A stretch of DNA of 28,127 nucleotides from a virus. The position numbers were made by a program, and so were the translations under genes. Where the stretch lies: IMG/VR virus record IMGVR_UViG_3300047461_000142, positions 1 through 28,127 of that record; one strand, given 5' to 3'. Positions 5,789 through 28,127 of the stretch are shown here, piece after piece (positions within the stretch are counted from its first letter, which is position 1; every line of letters starts with the position of its first letter). The notes below the pieces were generated by a model, which did not search any database, was not told the DNA's origin, and saw only the letters and a program-made list of their open reading frames with translations.

Positions 5789-6000
5789 ATAAATACTTAA
5801 AAGCACAATCCTGGTGTTTAAAAAACAATATAAAGGTTTACATAGTTCCCATTAAGGGCAAAAAAAAATGCTATGTTGAAATAAATGATGATGGTCAATT
5901 AATTAGATCTCCTAAAACCTATGCATATCAAAAAGATGCAAGTGATAAAATATGGGATTTGTATTTATATTTGTACAATAAAAAAAGCAAACATGATTAA
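5785..6000 (+). CDS. Hypothetical small basic protein, 71 residues
   Basis: This gene is joined by an ATGA overlap to the gene before it and overlaps the ParB-methyltransferase gene by eight bases (ATGATTAA). It is rich in Lys and Tyr, with a short beta-type stretch (about 17-40) and a C-terminal aromatic helix ending in K-K-S-K-H-D. No family was recognised. The tight coupling on both sides makes it very likely to be a real gene of the methyltransferase cluster. Confidence 0.6.
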   Translation: MNKYLKAQSWCLKNNIKVYIVPIKGKKKCYVEINDDGQLIRSPKTYAYQKDASDKIWDLYLYLYNKKSKHD

Positions 6001-7069
6001 AAAAGTAAACATTAAAGAAATCAAAGAGAATCCAAATAATCCAAGATATGTTGTTGATTCTAAGTTTAAAAAATTAGTAAAATCAATTAAAGAGTTTCCA
6101 GAAATGTTGGAAAAACGACCAATTGTAGTTGATGAAAATATGATTGTACTTGGTGGCAATATGAGATTAAAAGCATGTAAATCAGCTGGTTTATTTGAGG
6201 TTTATATACATCAAGCTAATGGTTGGACAGAAGAACAAAAACAAGAATTTATTATTAAAGATAATGTTGGTTTTGGTGATTGGGATTGGGATATATTAGC
6301 TAATGAATGGGACACAAAAAAATTAAATGAATGGGGTTTAGATTTACCAGAGTTTGATGAAATACAACTTGATGCTGAAGAAGATGATTATACTGAACCA
6401 GAACAAATGAAAGTTGATGTTGTTTTAGGTGATTTAATTGAGATAGGCGAACATAGGTTATTGTGTGGTGATAGTACAGACACATTTATTATTAAAAAAC
6501 TTATCCAAGATAAAAAATTTCATTTAATAACAGATCCTCCATATGGTATTAATGCAAATAATCAAACACTTGGTTCTGGTAAAAAAGAATTTTATAGAGG
6601 ACAAAATTGGGACAAAGAAATTTTAGATTTTTATGGTGTTTTAAATTATGTTGAAAAAGCTATAATTTGGGGTGGCAACTATTTTGCAGACAAATTAGAA
6701 ATCAACAACGACTGGTTGTGTTGGCACAAAAAAAATGATAATTTAAGTTTTAGTGAATTTGAATTAGCATGGAGTAATTTAGGTAAAAACACTAGAATTT
6801 TATCACATCATTGGGGTGGTGAAAAAAAAATACATCCAACAATGAAGCCAGTAAAAGTTATAGAGTGGTGTATAAATTTAATTAACGATAATAAACCAAT
6901 TTTAGATATTTTTTTAGGTTCTGGTTCAACTATGGTTGCAGCACATCAATTAAATAAAATATGTTATGGTATTGAACTTGATCCAAAGTATTGTCAAGTA
7001 ATTATAGATAGAATGTTAAAACTAGATCCAGATCTAAAAGTTAAAATAAATGGAAAAAAGTATAAATAA
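5993..7069 (+). CDS. ParB-like domain fused to DNA adenine methyltransferase
   Basis: A 358-residue fusion. Residues 1-95 are ParB/Srx-like: an N-P-N-N-P-R segment (13-18), then V-V-D-E-N and G-G-N-M-R (54-58), the equivalent of the ParB G-E-R-R nucleotide-binding box. Residues about 142-345 are a beta-class methyltransferase with D-P-P-Y (181-184), H-P-T-M-K-P (281-286) and F-L-G-S-G-S-T (307-313). D-P-P-Y is typical of adenine-N6 methylation. Such ParB-methylase fusions are common in phages, and the ParB part may bind CTP or help target DNA. The frame is open from ATG 5921, but ATG 5993 begins exactly at the conserved domain and gives an 8-base overlap, so it is preferred. No partner nuclease is visible. 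Confidence 0.88.
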   Translation: MIKKVNIKEIKENPNNPRYVVDSKFKKLVKSIKEFPEMLEKRPIVVDENMIVLGGNMRLKACKSAGLFEVYIHQANGWTEEQKQEFIIKDNVGFGDWDWDILANEWDTKKLNEWGLDLPEFDEIQLDAEEDDYTEPEQMKVDVVLGDLIEIGEHRLLCGDSTDTFIIKKLIQDKKFHLITDPPYGINANNQTLGSGKKEFYRGQNWDKEILDFYGVLNYVEKAIIWGGNYFADKLEINNDWLCWHKKNDNLSFSEFELAWSNLGKNTRILSHHWGGEKKIHPTMKPVKVIEWCINLINDNKPILDIFLGSGSTMVAAHQLNKICYGIELDPKYCQVIIDRMLKLDPDLKVKINGKKYK

Positions 7070-19535: not shown

Positions 19536-22500
19536 ATGGCAACATCATATACTGGTTTAAGGGTTCAAGATACTTATAATGCAATAATCAAAATTGGAGA
19601 CAATTCAAACTTAACAGCAACTCCAAAACTTTTAAGTGATGGTTTAGGTAACGATTCACCTTTATATTTATCTGGAACTAGATTAGGTATTGGTATTTCA
19701 CCAGCTTATCAGTTTCATACAAGTGGTAATGCTAAAATTGGTGGTAATTTAATAGTATCTGGTAATCTTACAGTAAATGGTACACTTACATATTTGAATG
19801 TACAAGATCTTGCAGTTGAAGATCCAATAATAAAATTAGCAAAAGATAATACAGCTAACACTTTAGATATTGGTTTGTTCGGTAAATATGTAGCAACTGG
19901 TACAAAATATAAAGGTTTTTTCAATGATGCTAGTGATGATAAGTTTAAGCTATTTATAGGCACTACTGTTGAGCCAACAACAACTGTTGATACATCAGCT
20001 AGTGGATATACAATTGGTACTCTTGTAGCTAATATAGAAGGTACTACTGGTACTTTTAGTGGGTTATTAAAATCAGATACATTAGAATTAACAAGTGGTG
20101 CTGATCATTTAACATTTACAGAATCATCTGGTGATTGGACAATAAATAATTCCCAACAAAATAATGGTATAACTATTTATGATAGTACTGGTGGTGTTGA
20201 TATAAATTATGCTAGTTCTGCATATTTACAAGTAGATAATACTGGTGTTCATACACAAACCAATATAGATTTTTATGTTGATACAAATTTAATTTATGCA
20301 GATGCTGCAAATAACAAAGTTGGTATTGGCGTAACAGCTCCTGACTATAAACTTGAAGTAAATGGTCAAATAGCTAGTAATAACTATATTATTGCTGGTT
20401 TAGGAAATGGTGGTGTTGCATTAACTCACAATGATGGTTATGGAAATGCTAATGTTACATTTAATCATGTTTCAGGAACACCTGAGCAAGATGGGAGTTC
20501 TGGTCGTATTGTAGTTACAACTGATGGCACTACTGCTAAAATGACTTTTGAATTAAAAGATGATGTAACAAGTGGAGATGCAGTTGATACACCACAAATA
20601 ATGGAGCTTTACTCAAGTTCAATTGTAGCAAATCAAAAATTTAGAACAAGAACAACAACTGGTGGACATATTTATTTAGAAAGAAATGACACAACTATTG
20701 GTACTGGTAATCATATTGGTACACTACATTTTTCTGGCGATGATCCAACTGATGGAACTTTTAATGATGGTGCTGCTATAAAAATTACAGCAGTAAGTGG
20801 ATGGAGTGCAGATGATTATCCATCAAGAATAGAATTACAAACAGATAATTCTGGTACATTAACAACAGCATTAACTATTGATGAGTCACAAAATGCAACT
20901 TTTGCTAATAATGTCACTATTCCAGAAACACCAACAGCAGATGCTCACGCAGCATCTAAAAAATATGTAGATGATAATTTAATACCAGCACAATCATTAA
21001 GTAATGTTTTAGGGGTTGGTAATACCTCAGGTGCTAATGATATTATAATGGCAGATGACCAAAAAATAAATTTTGGTACTGATTCTGATTTACAAATATA
21101 TCACGATGACACTGATGGCTATATTAAAAACGAAAAAGGTAATTTAATTATAGAACAAACTACAGATGCCGCAGATATAGTATTTAAATCAGATAATGGT
21201 AGTGGAGACACTATAGAATATTTTAGAGTTGATGGTTCAACAAATACTATTCCTTTTGGTAGATCACCTCACATTGTCGATAATGTCAAATTATATTTCG
21301 GAAATGAAACTGCTAACGATGCAAGTATAAAATGGGATTCAACAGCAAATGAGCTATTTATTGATGGCGAATCAAAATTCCTTGATAACTTAGCTGTTGT
21401 AGGTGCTATAAAAGATTCTGATGGTGATGCTGGTACAAGTGGACAGTTATTATCATCTACTGGAACTGGTACTAACTGGATTGATTTTGAAGCAGACACA
21501 GCTAAAAGATTAGAGGTTGATGTTAAAAATGTTCATGGTGCTACTTTAGCAAAAGGTACTGTTGTTCATGCTGAACCAACTGGAACATTAAGTGGTAATG
21601 TCATTGAGGTTGTTGCAGCAGATGCTAATAGTGGTAGAATGCCAGCAATAGGTGTTTTAAATGAGGCATTATTAGATGATGATGAGGGTAAGGCAGTAAT
21701 GTTTGGTACTGTACAAGGCATTGATACATCTGCTTTTAGTGTCGGTGATGAGTTATATGTTTCTGCAACTGCTGGCCAATTTACAGCTACTAAACCAATT
21801 GCAACAACTGAAGAAGTACAAAAGATTGCTATTGTAATAAAATCTCATGCAAGTAATGGATTAATAAAAGTATTTGGTGCTGGTAGGGCAAATGATGTTC
21901 CTAACCTTTTAACTAGAAATATTACTATTGATGGTGCTGATTTTTATTTTAGAAATGGTGACCAAATAAGAATGGGTGATTCTATTGGATTAAGAATACA
22001 GCATAATGGTAGTAATTCATTTATAGATGGTGAGATTGGTAGTATGTATTTTAGAGCAGAAGCAAATAATTCTGCTATGTATTTTCAAGCAGATGATGGC
22101 TCTGGAGGTAATGCAACCTATATAGAAATTAATGGTGATGATGAAAGAATCTATGTAAATAGATTAATGAGATTTAATGATAATGTAGAATTACGTTTAG
22201 GTGAAAATAATGACATAAGATTATACCATAATTCGACATCAGGCAATGGTAACATTGAAAACCATAATGGTAGTTTATATATAACTAATTATGCAGATGA
22301 TGAAGATATTATATTTAGAACTGACAATGGTTCTGGTGATGTAATTGAATACTTTAGGTTAGATGGCTCGACAAACACAGTGCCATTTGGAAGGTCACCA
22401 CACATTGTAGATAATTTAAAACTATACTTTGGTAACGACACAGCAAATGATGCTAGTATTAAGTGGGATTCTACAGCTAGTCAATTGTTTATAGATGGAG

Positions 22501-25500
22501 TATCAAAGTTTTTAAGTAATGTTTATTTTACAAGTAATGCATATTTTGGAGATAATGATAAACTCTATTTTGGTGATTTAACAACTCCAGATTTAGAAAT
22601 ATACCACGATGGTAGTAATAGTTATATAAGAGAGCTTGGTACTGGTAATTTATATCTTGATACAAATGGAACTCAAGTTATAATTTCTACTAATGCAACA
22701 GCAAAAACAGCAGCAACTTTTACAAATAATGGAAGTGTAGATTTATACTATAACAACTCGAAAAAGTTTGAAACAACAAATACAGGTGTTACTGTTACAG
22801 GTGGTGGAACTTTTACAGGAGATGTTAATGTAGGTGCAAATACAAATGCTACAAGAAAAATAGAATTATCAGGGGGTAGAGCAGTTTATGAATATGACAC
22901 AACAAAAGGAACATCAGGCGCTATTGTAATTCAAGGTAGTGCTAATAAAGAAATTCATTTTGAAACTACTGCTGATACACCAGATATGATAATAGACAGT
23001 TCTGGAAACGTAGGAATTGGAACAACTTCCCCTGATACTAAATTAGAAATTGTAGGAAACAATCCTATTTTAACTATAAGAGATTCTGATACCTCTTCCT
23101 CGACCGCAACGTCAACTATAAGGTTTGCAGAGTCGAATGCAAGTGATACTTTAGGTAATTATTGGGACGTTGGATATTCACCAGTTAATCTGTTAAATTT
23201 TGATTTTAATGGCAGTACCAAAATGACTATCAACTCTTCAGGCAACGTAGGTATTAATGACACTTCTCCTAGTCATAAATTGCATGTATCTAGTGGAAAT
23301 GGAGATACTGCAAGAACAGTAAATGTTTCACATACTAGAAATGATCCTGATACTGGATCAGACGCAATATTTGTTGATGCTAATTACTCAGGAACAAAAT
23401 CTAATGCAACAGATATAGAACAAACTGGAATAAGAATAGATTTAGATTCATCAGCTAATGGTGATGCTACTAATGAACACAGAATTATTGGTATTAAATC
23501 AGATACTAGAAATAGTGGTTTTGCTGATATAGTAAGAGGTGGTTATTTTTATGCTGAATCGAATTATACTGGTGCTAAAACTGCTGAAGTTGTTGGAGCA
23601 TATGGTATAGCAACACATGATGCGAATAGTGCAAGTGGTGGTGTTTCTAATTTGTATGGAACTAGAGGTGTAGCACAAGTACAAGATGATGGTGATGTTG
23701 ATAATGCTTATGGTTTACATGGTCAAGTTTTTATTGCAAATAATAGAGATGCAAATGTGGATAATGCTACTGCGATATATGGAGAAGTACAAATAGATGA
23801 ACAAACTGCATTAACTTATGATAATATAATTGGTACTAGAATAATTATTGACAACAATGAAGGTGCAGTACCTACCATTTCAAATTCATATTTGTTTTAT
23901 GGAACTTATACTGGAACTAAAAGTGCTAATGCTTGGGGTATCTATGTTCAAGGCGATAAAAATTATTTACAAGGAAACTTAGGAATCGGAACTACTTCTG
24001 CTGCTGAAAAACTTGAAGTATCAGGGAGTGTTAAAATTGGAAATTTAAAAATTCAAAATGCTAATAGTGGTAGGATTGGATTTAATAGAAATACAGCAAC
24101 TGGTGCAATATATGATTCTAATTCTTCAGCAATTCAAATTAATGGCCCTTCTTCTAGTTTAAATTATTTAAGTATTGAAGCTTATAATAGTAGTGGTAAT
24201 TTTACCAGTCAAATGGTTTATACAGGCAATGGTAGGGTAGGTATAAACTCAACTAACCCAGCTGGTTTATTAACAATAAATGGAACTGGGGATGCTATAA
24301 GAGTAGAATCAACAAACACTGGTGTAGGTGGTGCTCAAATGGATTTACTACATTTTACATCATCTCCAGCTGATGGTGATAATTTTGCCATGATAAATAT
24401 GGGTGGTTATTATACTGGAACAACGTCTGTTTATGGTACATCAATTAAAAGTATATGGACAGATGTATCAGCAAGAGATGCAAAATTAACTTTTTCAACA
24501 AATAACTCAGGTACTTTAACAGAGCAAATGGTCATAACTAGCAATGGAAAAGTAGGAATAAAAACAGATCCAACATATAATTTACAAGTTCAGAAATCTA
24601 GTCAAGCATCACCAGCAATTATGATTGGTGGAGCTTATTATGGTGGACCAAGATTACAAACTTATGGATTAGATGCTGATGCTAATGCATGGATGGGGTT
24701 AGGAACTGATATGAGTGGTGCACCTTATGAACATAATGTATATTTTAGTGATCACAACAATTATGGTAGATTAAGTTTTGGTACATACAATGGCACTACT
24801 TATTCTGAAAAAATGGCTATTACAAGAGCTGGGTTAATTGGTATAGGTGGTGAACCATCTCATATTTTACATATAAAACAAGATAGTGCTACTAATCTAG
24901 TTAATTTAATAGAACAAGACAATGCTAGTTATCAAGCATATTATGAAGCAAAATCACAAAATAATGGTTATGCTAGATTTGGGATTGGCACTAATGCTAG
25001 TGCTGAAGCATTTTTTAATACAAGTGTTTCCTCATATACTTGGAATCACACTGGTGGTGGTTTATTAATGACATTAAATTCTAATGGTCATCTTGGTTTA
25101 GGAATAACTAATTTAACATTTGCAAAATTAGCAGTTAATGGAGCTACATATTCTTCTGGAGGTACATTTAATGCTGGAACTGATACTGTAACTAATGCTG
25201 CTTTTGTAGTTGATGAGGAAGATTGGATTTACACAAGAGATAGCTCACAATATGCTAGAAAGTTAATTGGTAAAACTAATGATATAATACAAATAGGGCA
25301 ATCAGGCACATCTTTAGTACAAGGTATTGAGTTTTATTCTGGTTCAGATCAATGTAATTATAAATGGTATAGAAATACAAGTGTAGCAATGCAATTAACT
25401 GGTAGTGGCTCACAACCTTATGAGATTTTAGATGTAAAAGGTAGAATAAAAGCTGAAACTGATAATGGAAGTGCAGTCAATGTACCTAGAAGTAAATCTA

Positions 25501-25832
25501 TTTCTTATCAGGGTGCATCTGGATATTATGATTTTGACCCAGTTGCTGAATTTGGACAAAGTAAAAGTGGTGGATATGTATTATTAGAGGTTAATGGATG
25601 GCAAACAAGATTTAATGCTGGTTATATACACTGGAATAATAATGGAACTGGTGCTGGTGCAATTGGAACTGGTAGCGTTACATACAGACAAATAGCGTGG
25701 AGTGGATCTTCGAGTGGTGCTGGAGTAACTGTATCATTACCATCTAGCTCAACTAATGTAATAAGAATATCATTCTCAGGATGGCATAGTAATAATCATG
25801 GTTGGACAGCTAACATTATAAATAGATGGTAA
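19536..25832 (+). CDS. Giant tail fibre / receptor-binding protein, 2098 residues
   Basis: A repeat-rich, Gly/Thr/Asn/Ser-rich fibre with almost no Cys. Residues 1-480 hold an N-terminal head and a K-K-Y-V-D element (474-478) typical of phage fibres. Two copies of a module occur at about 518-618 and 893-996, with a conserved fibre domain between them (about 658-790, G-T-V-V-H-A-E-P, G-T-V-Q-G-I-D-T). Nine G-x-V/L-G-I/L-x-x-T-x-P-like motifs are found near 49, 258, 1155, 1235, 1479, 1565, 1669, 1764 and 1849. The C-terminal 110 residues (F-D-P-V-A-E-F-G onward) form a Trp/Ser-rich beta domain, probably the receptor tip. No S74 chaperone motif was seen. The position between holin and tail-tube genes is unusual. 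Confidence 0.88.
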   Translation: MATSYTGLRVQDTYNAIIKIGDNSNLTATPKLLSDGLGNDSPLYLSGTRLGIGISPAYQFHTSGNAKIGGNLIVSGNLTVNGTLTYLNVQDLAVEDPIIKLAKDNTANTLDIGLFGKYVATGTKYKGFFNDASDDKFKLFIGTTVEPTTTVDTSASGYTIGTLVANIEGTTGTFSGLLKSDTLELTSGADHLTFTESSGDWTINNSQQNNGITIYDSTGGVDINYASSAYLQVDNTGVHTQTNIDFYVDTNLIYADAANNKVGIGVTAPDYKLEVNGQIASNNYIIAGLGNGGVALTHNDGYGNANVTFNHVSGTPEQDGSSGRIVVTTDGTTAKMTFELKDDVTSGDAVDTPQIMELYSSSIVANQKFRTRTTTGGHIYLERNDTTIGTGNHIGTLHFSGDDPTDGTFNDGAAIKITAVSGWSADDYPSRIELQTDNSGTLTTALTIDESQNATFANNVTIPETPTADAHAASKKYVDDNLIPAQSLSNVLGVGNTSGANDIIMADDQKINFGTDSDLQIYHDDTDGYIKNEKGNLIIEQTTDAADIVFKSDNGSGDTIEYFRVDGSTNTIPFGRSPHIVDNVKLYFGNETANDASIKWDSTANELFIDGESKFLDNLAVVGAIKDSDGDAGTSGQLLSSTGTGTNWIDFEADTAKRLEVDVKNVHGATLAKGTVVHAEPTGTLSGNVIEVVAADANSGRMPAIGVLNEALLDDDEGKAVMFGTVQGIDTSAFSVGDELYVSATAGQFTATKPIATTEEVQKIAIVIKSHASNGLIKVFGAGRANDVPNLLTRNITIDGADFYFRNGDQIRMGDSIGLRIQHNGSNSFIDGEIGSMYFRAEANNSAMYFQADDGSGGNATYIEINGDDERIYVNRLMRFNDNVELRLGENNDIRLYHNSTSGNGNIENHNGSLYITNYADDEDIIFRTDNGSGDVIEYFRLDGSTNTVPFGRSPHIVDNLKLYFGNDTANDASIKWDSTASQLFIDGVSKFLSNVYFTSNAYFGDNDKLYFGDLTTPDLEIYHDGSNSYIRELGTGNLYLDTNGTQVIISTNATAKTAATFTNNGSVDLYYNNSKKFETTNTGVTVTGGGTFTGDVNVGANTNATRKIELSGGRAVYEYDTTKGTSGAIVIQGSANKEIHFETTADTPDMIIDSSGNVGIGTTSPDTKLEIVGNNPILTIRDSDTSSSTATSTIRFAESNASDTLGNYWDVGYSPVNLLNFDFNGSTKMTINSSGNVGINDTSPSHKLHVSSGNGDTARTVNVSHTRNDPDTGSDAIFVDANYSGTKSNATDIEQTGIRIDLDSSANGDATNEHRIIGIKSDTRNSGFADIVRGGYFYAESNYTGAKTAEVVGAYGIATHDANSASGGVSNLYGTRGVAQVQDDGDVDNAYGLHGQVFIANNRDANVDNATAIYGEVQIDEQTALTYDNIIGTRIIIDNNEGAVPTISNSYLFYGTYTGTKSANAWGIYVQGDKNYLQGNLGIGTTSAAEKLEVSGSVKIGNLKIQNANSGRIGFNRNTATGAIYDSNSSAIQINGPSSSLNYLSIEAYNSSGNFTSQMVYTGNGRVGINSTNPAGLLTINGTGDAIRVESTNTGVGGAQMDLLHFTSSPADGDNFAMINMGGYYTGTTSVYGTSIKSIWTDVSARDAKLTFSTNNSGTLTEQMVITSNGKVGIKTDPTYNLQVQKSSQASPAIMIGGAYYGGPRLQTYGLDADANAWMGLGTDMSGAPYEHNVYFSDHNNYGRLSFGTYNGTTYSEKMAITRAGLIGIGGEPSHILHIKQDSATNLVNLIEQDNASYQAYYEAKSQNNGYARFGIGTNASAEAFFNTSVSSYTWNHTGGGLLMTLNSNGHLGLGITNLTFAKLAVNGATYSSGGTFNAGTDTVTNAAFVVDEEDWIYTRDSSQYARKLIGKTNDIIQIGQSGTSLVQGIEFYSGSDQCNYKWYRNTSVAMQLTGSGSQPYEILDVKGRIKAETDNGSAVNVPRSKSISYQGASGYYDFDPVAEFGQSKSGGYVLLEVNGWQTRFNAGYIHWNNNGTGAGAIGTGSVTYRQIAWSGSSSGAGVTVSLPSSSTNVIRISFSGWHSNNHGWTANIINRW
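21087..21391 (+). repeat. Fibre module copy A (about 101 residues)
   Basis: Encodes the first copy of a module starting D-L-Q-I-Y-H-D and ending S-K-F-L-D-N-L. Its core (F-G-R-S-P-H-I-V-D-N and T-A-N-D-A-S-I-K-W-D) is nearly identical at protein level to copy B at 22212-22523, but the DNA differs at most third positions. Confidence 0.85.
22212..22523 (+). repeat. Fibre module copy B (about 104 residues)
   Basis: Second copy, starting D-I-R-L-Y-H-N and ending S-K-F-L-S-N-V. Partial, more diverged copies of the opening element (x-I-x-H-x-G-S-N-S) occur near 21990 and 22590. Confidence 0.85.
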
Positions 25833-26462: not shown

Positions 26463-26930
26463 ATGGCAGTTATAAATGCCACTAGTTTTCTGTTATTAAA
26501 AGATACAACAGTTGTAGGGCATTCTAAAAGCACTAGTTTTAACATTAATGTAGATTTACCAGATGCTACAACTAAAGAAAGTTTAGGGTGGCAAGAGGTT
26601 ATACCAGGTGTTAAATCTGGAACAATTAGTTGTGAATGTTTAACTGATTATTCTGATTCATTAAATTTTGAGCAGTTAGCTGACATGGTGCTAACTAAAG
26701 AAAAGGCAACTTTTGTTTTTAAAGACAATGTAAATCCTAAATTAATTGTTAGAGGTGAGGGGTTTATCAATTCAGTAGATGAGACAGCTGAGTTTGAAAC
26801 TGCTACTAGTTTTAATTTAGAAATAAACCTTACTGGTGTTTTTACTATAACTGATCCTAGTGAGGGTAGAACTTGGGAAAACATCTTTGAAAAGTGGGAG
26901 GATATATCAGATAACTGGGAAGATGTATAA
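26463..26930 (+). CDS. Major tail (tube) protein 1, TP901-1 type
   Basis: A 155-residue tail tube subunit. The pattern is G-H-S-K-S near the start, D-L-P-D-A-T-T-K-E-S, the W-Q-E-V-I-P-G-V-K-S-G loop, then beta strands with V-R-G-E-G-F-I-N-S-V and a closing strand before I-T-D-P. The C-terminal 20 residues repeat W-E-N-I-F / K-W-E-D-I / N-W-E-D, an acidic tail absent from the second copy. It would polymerise into the tail tube around the tape measure. Confidence 0.8.
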   Translation: MAVINATSFLLLKDTTVVGHSKSTSFNINVDLPDATTKESLGWQEVIPGVKSGTISCECLTDYSDSLNFEQLADMVLTKEKATFVFKDNVNPKLIVRGEGFINSVDETAEFETATSFNLEINLTGVFTITDPSEGRTWENIFEKWEDISDNWEDV

Positions 26931-26979: not shown

Positions 26980-27408
26980 ATGGCTACAACAGGCGTATTT
27001 AATGGAACAGATTTACTACTTAAATTAACAGATGGATCATCAATAGCAACATCTACTACTATTGGACACTCAACATCTTGTACTCTTACACTATCAAATG
27101 ATTTGCCTGAGGCAACTACAAAAGATAGCAATGGGTTTCAAGAAGTTATTGCTGGTGTAAAAAGTGGTGAGATTTCTTTTGAGGGATTAATTGCTTATGA
27201 TGACAATGCAAATCCAGTTGATTTTGCTGATATTTTAATTGCTAGAACAGCTGTATCATGGGAATTTGGAACTGCTGAAACTGGCGATGCTGTGTATTCA
27301 GGATCAGGTTTCTTAAGCTCAGTTGAGATGAGTGCTGAAATGGAATCTCCAGCAACTTATAGTGGTTCAATTACTGTAAATGGTGCAATTACTAAAACAA
27401 CTAATTAA
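26980..27408 (+). CDS. Major tail (tube) protein 2, paralogue of the preceding gene
   Basis: A 142-residue paralogue of the 26463 product. Shared landmarks in the same order are G-H-S-T-S, D-L-P-E-A-T-T-K-D-S, F-Q-E-V-I-A-G-V-K-S-G and Y-S-G-S-G-F-L-S-S-V, with the same E-x-E-rich stretch near the end. It lacks the acidic W-E-D tail of copy 1. It has an extra N-terminal F-N-G-T-D-L-L-L. It is likely a second tail-tube subunit or a distal tube protein. Confidence 0.8.
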   Translation: MATTGVFNGTDLLLKLTDGSSIATSTTIGHSTSCTLTLSNDLPEATTKDSNGFQEVIAGVKSGEISFEGLIAYDDNANPVDFADILIARTAVSWEFGTAETGDAVYSGSGFLSSVEMSAEMESPATYSGSITVNGAITKTTN

Positions 27409-27479: not shown

Positions 27480-27866
27480 ATGGCAAACAAAAAAAGAGGT
27501 TACTATACCTTAAAAATAGGTGGCAAAATGCGAACTATGCATTTTTCAATGAATTTCTGGTCAAACTTTACTGATGAATTAAATATACCAATTGATAAAA
27601 TTGGTGATGTATTTAATGATGGAATTTCATTAAGCACAATAAGAGCTTTAATATATAGTGGTTTATTAGCTAATGATCAAGAGCAAGGCAATAAAATTGA
27701 TTATAATATTTTTAAAGTTGGAATGTGGCTTGAAGATGTAAAAACTGAAACTTTTACTGATGTAATAAGTTCAATGATGGAATCAAGAATATTAGGGAAT
27801 GATCTCAATATGGGTGTTGCTAGAAATATCAAAAAAACTACTAAACCAACAAAAGAGGGAAAGTAA
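27480..27866 (+). CDS. Tail assembly chaperone, short form (G-type)
   Basis: A 128-residue protein placed between the tail tube gene and the expected tape measure gene, where lambda gpG and its analogues lie. It is largely helical, with K-R-G-Y-Y-T-L-K-I-G at the start, F-S-M-N-F-W-S-N-F-T and a central D-G-I-S-L-S-T-I-R-A-L. The last codons are GAG GGA AAG then TAA, containing the slippery heptamer G-GGA-AAG. Ribosomes that do not shift stop here. The family assignment comes from position plus the frameshift site rather than sequence identity. Confidence 0.8.
   Translation: MANKKRGYYTLKIGGKMRTMHFSMNFWSNFTDELNIPIDKIGDVFNDGISLSTIRALIYSGLLANDQEQGNKIDYNIFKVGMWLEDVKTETFTDVISSMMESRILGNDLNMGVARNIKKTTKPTKEGK
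27857..27863 (+). other. Programmed -1 frameshift site GGGAAAG
   Basis: The heptamer G GGA AAG is in the correct frame (X XXY YYZ) and is immediately followed by the TAA stop (27864-27866). It is identical to the lambda G/T site. A -1 slip continues into a frame open to the window end. Confidence 0.85.
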
Positions 27867-28127
27867 GTAGCCAACTTGATTGGGATTCTCTATTAGATTT
27901 TTATATTGGTCAGGTTGGCATAACTCCAGATTCTTTTTGGAAAAACACTTGGAAAGAAAATCATTTACTTGGTGAATCACATATGATTAAAAGTAATATA
28001 ACTTGGGAGCAAACTAGATATTTAGCTGCTATGCTTTTTAATGTAAATTGTAATAAAAAAGGTCAAATGATTACACCAGATAAATTATTTCCTTTACCTC
28101 AAGATATTTATTTGGGTAGGGGGAAAC
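27863..28127 (+). CDS. Tail assembly chaperone, T-domain extension read by -1 frameshift (3' end missing)
   Basis: After the slip (base 27863 read twice) 88 further codons are open to the window edge. They begin V-S-S-Q-L-D-W-D-S-L-L-D-F-Y-I-G and continue with F-W-K-N-T-W, I-T-W-E-Q-T-R-Y-L-A-A-M-L and P-L-P-Q-D-I-Y-L. The aromatic, helical composition and the W-x-x-T/Q-x-R-Y pattern fit the T domains of G/GT chaperones, which hold the tape measure. The first in-frame ATG is at 27981, over 110 bases in, so independent initiation is less likely than fusion. The predicted long form is at least 216 residues. Confidence 0.8.

Follow-up and report, generated by a model that had tools for sequence, protein, structure and literature searches.

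In phage lambda, rare -1 frameshifting links two tail assembly products, gpG and gpGT, with G binding to the tape measure and T to the tail shaft protein. The shift shows wide conservation, and its G_GGA_AAG heptamer is highly shift-prone in E. coli (PMC5009743). Frameshifts between g and t genes are also described for the haloarchaeal siphoviruses HCTV-1, -2 and -5, which are other viruses of other hosts (PMC5009743). Here, we analyzed 28,127 nucleotides of viral DNA (positions 1 to 28,127 of IMG/VR record IMGVR_UViG_3300047461_000142; hereafter the window, a fragment of a virus record) and found that its 3' end almost certainly carries a programmed -1 frameshift of the G/GT type in a siphovirus tail assembly chaperone gene, which would be assisted by an RNA stem and yield G together with a G-T fusion. 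In common with lambda, the locus has the heptamer, its phase, its position near the end of G, the -1 direction, the placement of both genes between tail tube and tape measure, and a T frame without its own start. Unlike in lambda, the heptamer of the window is directly followed by the stop codon and, after 6 nt, by a conserved, covarying stem, and the searches made revealed no recognisable sequence similarity between the window proteins and lambda G or T. As in the HCTV g-t set (PMC5009743), G_GGA_AAG occurs in the present family alongside G_GGA_AAC and A-run variants. Judged by its sequence, the locus appears to work like lambda G/GT, a known type of mechanism; the likely stimulatory stem is its one non-routine detail.

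Table 1. Features of the G/T junction and the adjoining tail tube gene, in window coordinates.
Feature	Position	Strand	Basis or remark
G-like frame, putative tail assembly chaperone N-terminal protein	27480..27866	+	Open reading frame, ATG...TAA, 128 aa
Candidate slippery heptamer G_GGA_AAG	27857..27863	+	In phase with G; conserved across junctions
Zero-frame stop TAA, adjoining the heptamer 3'	27864..27866	+	Sequence; displaced in some relatives
T-like -1 frame	27863..28127	+	88 codons in the window, ended by the contig end; 110 in L002
-1-frame TAA ruling out the A7 run	27842..27844	+	Sequence; six open -1 codons upstream of the heptamer
Stem 5' arm	27870..27879 (core 27870-27876)	+	RNAalifold, pair counts, minimum free energy of the window, localisation scan
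Stem 3' arm	27910..27919 (core 27913-27919)	+	RNAalifold, pair counts, minimum free energy of the window, glycine codon
Major tail tube protein gene (Phage_tail_2), immediately upstream of G	26980..27408	+	PF06199 E=4.8e-18; PHROG 1407 E=6.7e-25

The G frame is the last open reading frame (ORF) of the window, and its 3' end, read directly from the sequence, is GAG GGA AAG TAA. An earlier sequence-only reading of the window had placed a GGGAAAG heptamer in lambda-type phase right before the TAA, and this proved correct: G|GGA|AAG stands in tandem-slip phase, with GGA and AAG as zero-frame codons. GGGAAAG occurs once on the + strand of the 28-kb window and never on the - strand, the + strand expectation from dinucleotides being 2.4. 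The codon usage of the window, in which lysine is encoded by 559 AAA and 110 AAG, predicts a frequency of about 2e-5 per codon position for xxG GGA AAG. The longest run within the site is three bases, and six open -1 codons precede the heptamer. We also considered and rejected a run of seven A upstream (27831-27837), which the same reading had ranked as the poorer candidate; its case against this run could be firmed up, because a -1 shift there meets a TAA at once.

To characterize the junction in relatives, IMG/VR was scanned separately with G and with T, yielding hundreds of relatives in which the T match starts where the G match stops; the 128-aa G frame is kept in more than 80 viral contigs. 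Together with three metagenome-assembled genome (MAG) contigs, these relatives gave 126 distinct junction contexts. T lies in the -1 frame relative to G in 126/126, and GGGAAAG is in phase in 106 of them. The remaining 20 are slippery in phase as well, with GGGAAAA in one, GGGAAAC in another and A AAA AAA in the 18 members of a side clade (L203, L184, L201, L179 and relatives), where it sits inside a run of nine A. This side clade may rely on another stimulator or on transcriptional slippage. In 125/126 junctions, no ATG, GTG or TTG is found in the T frame ahead of the conserved core, and the -1 frame usually closes just a few codons upstream of the heptamer. The sequence-only reading had proposed a programmed G/GT frameshift and suggested a search of relatives for GGGAAAG before the G stop and an open -1 frame, naming a missing heptamer with a separate T start as the contrary outcome; that outcome did not arise, and the junction set supports its proposal.

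Within a closer set of 74 distinct sequences, GGGAAA is invariant (74/74) and the seventh base is G in 73/74, the sole change giving GGGAAAA, which is slippery too, while neighbouring third positions vary freely around the heptamer. The heptamer is also retained in 17 GGGAAAG junctions whose zero-frame stop is displaced downstream by 4-6 codons; therefore, an adjacent TAA is not essential. One MAG contig (L132) keeps G GGA AAG six codons from the stop with the rest of the junction changed, and another (L133) has G GGA AAC in an otherwise changed junction sequence. The MAG contigs with L131, L132 and L133 are labelled Woesearchaeota, Rhodobiaceae and Gammaproteobacteria, a disagreement that probably reflects the binning of phage contigs. 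A Bacteroidetes-type host is plausible.

From 27863, the -1 frame is open for 88 codons to the last base of the window, translating as VSSQLDWDSLLDFYIGQVG..., in line with the earlier claim of a protein-like frame of at least that length. A relative with 100% identity to the window across both frames (L002) holds the full T of 110 codons. Its stop, 22 codons after 28127, is not the early -1 stop that the sequence-only reading had listed as adverse; it ends a conserved T domain that measures 106-113 codons in other relatives and finishes directly upstream of the tape-measure gene. T and G have median ratios of nonsynonymous to synonymous substitution rates (dN/dS) of 0.20 and 0.17, respectively, and both frames are under purifying selection. 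Judging from this conservation, T reads as a genuine protein domain. We rejected the open -1 frame as evidence on its own, as at least 60 open -1 codons also follow 11 of the 31 other window genes. Such long open -1 frames are common in the window because neighbouring genes overlap, and it is conservation that lifts the present case above chance.

Folding the region 3' of the heptamer with RNAalifold (66 sequences) returned one helix, which the sequence-only reading had not noted, pairing alignment columns 14-20 with 57-63, which correspond to the core arms in Table 1. The stem begins 6 nt after the heptamer and measures 7-10 bp, reaching 10 bp in the window, where GCCAACUUGA pairs with UCAGGUUGGC. 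Paired cells amount to 98.9% as compared to 90.4% in shuffles, and to at most 50% if the partner is slid by one base; likewise, the covariation score is 0.362 vs 0.213 in shuffles and drops to near zero at slides of 1-3 nt. At pair 14/63, 43 distinct rows carry G-C and 21 carry C-G, L131 being the only unpaired intermediate seen; at pair 18/59, 37 rows carry A-U, 18 carry G-C and 9 carry G-U. A tree built from flanking coding sequence implies 10 changes of pair 14/63, with 10 needed on each side, and a tree from the immediately adjacent bases implies 6. Because C-G at 14/63 occurs with both A-U and G-C at 18/59, there are at least two haplotypes. We then localised the signal with 56-nt folding windows every 6 nt over 610 nt, about 300 nt on either side. 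The lowest mean folding z-score, -3.58, fell at +12, exactly on the stem, as compared to an all-window mean of -0.24 (standard deviation 0.55). An earlier scan with 60-nt folding windows in 20-nt steps gave no signal, because both arms never fell within one of them, and the stretch of the window folded as a single sequence is mildly unusual (z -1.65). The 6-nt spacing stays even where the stop codon has moved, and a relative with a changed junction (L204) keeps GCCAACC/GGUUGGC with a spacer of 5 nt. Comparable 3' structures are known to act as stimulators in other systems, for example dnaX and IS3 elements, and the conserved pairing and spacing suggest that the present stem likely stimulates the -1 shift.

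The genes are arranged as tail tube - G - T - tape measure, read on the upstream side in the window and on the downstream side in a relative (L009), where a tape-measure-like ORF of 689 aa directly follows T. The locus thus has the marks of a G/GT pair: the two frames overlap and are flanked by tail tube and tape measure genes, every junction has an in-phase slippery sequence close to where the upstream frame ends, and the downstream frame has no start of its own and evolves under selection at the protein level. The position of the two genes, weak family matches and the conservation of T support a putative role of G/T as tail assembly chaperone. The predicted model of G comprises a two-strand plus helical domain (pLDDT 80), and that of T is helical with a low pTM of 0.42. 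The HK97 tail assembly chaperone 2OB9 ranked second among structural matches to the G model (Z 2.8, 86 residues, rmsd 6.2, 8% identity). A Foldseek search of G against the PDB gave nothing better than E 0.2, and solved structures searched by sequence with the G profile yielded nothing relevant.

The same gene order is seen in the Cellulophaga phi17:1 group and in Bacteroides F4/Bacuni_F1. In GenBank, the T proteins of phi17:1-group and F4-type phages share 28-29% identity with the present T over 82-89% of its length, at E 0.2-0.6. In phi17:1 and F4, T lies in the -1 frame after an in-phase A-run instead of GGGAAAG; at this site, the side clade, F4 and phi17:1 carry 9-10 A. The deposited records of phi17:1 (L208, 3594-4306) and F4 (L210, 3678-4330) list two separate hypothetical proteins, G and T, and no frameshift. 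Cellulophaga phi10:1 (L209, 4338-4685) was rejected as a parallel: its T occupies the +1/-2 frame relative to an unannotated G and starts with an ATG beside an A8 run. The gene order is unchanged there, but the solution is another one.

Several observations weigh against a stem-assisted chaperone frameshift. The family matches are weak, both for G (PHROG 2115 'tail protein', E=1.2e-6) and for T (PHROG 16333, E=1.2e-4); T reaches only 15.4 bits against Pfam Phage_TAC_6, below the cut-off of 23.4 (E=0.026), the sole Pfam match of G is DUF5484 at 18.1 vs a cut-off of 27, and the 2OB9 match is tied with unrelated helical proteins. As to the stem, covariation event counts could be inflated if two T alleles have recombined, no common stem was found at the same place in single-sequence folds of five A-run clade members, and, being inside coding sequence, its conservation is partly an amino-acid constraint. 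The last point leads to the most serious alternative, namely that the shift occurs and the stem is a mere by-product of protein-coding constraint, without stimulating it. The arms do encode conserved residues, SQL and QVG, and a required 3' structure is not usually part of descriptions of lambda G/GT. However, the glycine codon whose third base closes the stem in the 3' arm is GGC or GGG in 96/97, matching its partner exactly, whereas the commonest glycine codon elsewhere in the same genes is GGU. The GC-to-CG switch at pair 14/63, with L131 as its one unpaired intermediate, the strongest fold within 610 nt and a spacing that holds where the stop has moved also speak against a by-product, which we regard as unlikely, though deserving of attention.

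The existence of a ribosomal shift can be questioned on two further grounds, both of far smaller weight. G and T could be separate genes, with T beginning at a rare or reinitiated start codon of its own in the overlap, as the annotation of phi17:1 and F4 as separate coding sequences and the ATG at the beginning of phi10:1 T, in its +1/-2 frame, would have it. Yet ATG, GTG and TTG are missing ahead of the conserved core in all junctions but one, the first ATG in the window's T comes about 40 codons in, past many invariant residues, and separate genes would leave the invariance of the heptamer without a reason, making this explanation highly improbable. Least credible of all, at a level we consider negligible, is a frame change by slippage of RNA polymerase instead of the ribosome. 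Polymerases can slip on A runs of 9-10, as found in the 18-junction side clade, F4 and phi17:1, but GGGAAAG in the window has no run above three, the exact tandem-slip phase is kept, and the stem stands at a spacing typical of ribosomal shifting.

Given a programmed -1 frameshift, most ribosomes should terminate at the TAA at 27864 and release G of 128 aa. In a minority, tRNA-Gly and tRNA-Lys on GGA AAG would slip back by one base to GGG AAA, helped by the stem starting 6 nt downstream, and reading would continue as GTA AGT AGC CAA... to give a G-T fusion of 128 + 110 = 238 aa. By analogy to lambda, G would coat the tape measure protein, T would recruit the tail tube protein, and the G:GT ratio would control tail assembly. 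We lean towards the view that this marine phage lineage joins a lambda-type heptamer to a conserved 3' stem that evolves by compensatory changes and keeps a fixed distance of 6 nt, with the chaperone ratio being set by RNA structure and not by the heptamer alone. If this is true and the host belongs to the Bacteroidota, the locus would show which stimulator is allowed by hosts with little Shine-Dalgarno use. Neither a description of the present phage family nor an account of its 3' stem was found in the literature, where coverage of subscription papers was poor.

Whereas the mechanism is textbook, the addition is a large clade with a covarying 3' stem at fixed distance. With the same junction in more than 100 related phages, it provides a clean natural data set for tail-chaperone frameshifting, including natural variants in which the stop is moved, the last base is changed, the heptamer is replaced by an A-run, or the stem carries compensatory changes. 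It also bears on annotation, as gene callers split or miss G/T proteins in deposited Bacteroidota phage genomes.

Elsewhere in the window, two tandem tail tube-like genes directly precede G (26463-26930 and 26980-27408, PF06199 E 9.2e-9 and 4.8e-18, respectively); they may reflect duplication of the tail tube protein or a second, decorated subunit. A repetitive, fibre-like ORF of 2098 aa (19536-25832) has the head-tail connector/tail terminator genes on one side and the tail tube genes on the other, an unusual place for a fibre. Finally, inspection by eye pointed to an ORF of 382 aa (5921-7069) that is ParB-like plus DNA methyltransferase-like and overlaps the end of the preceding ORF.
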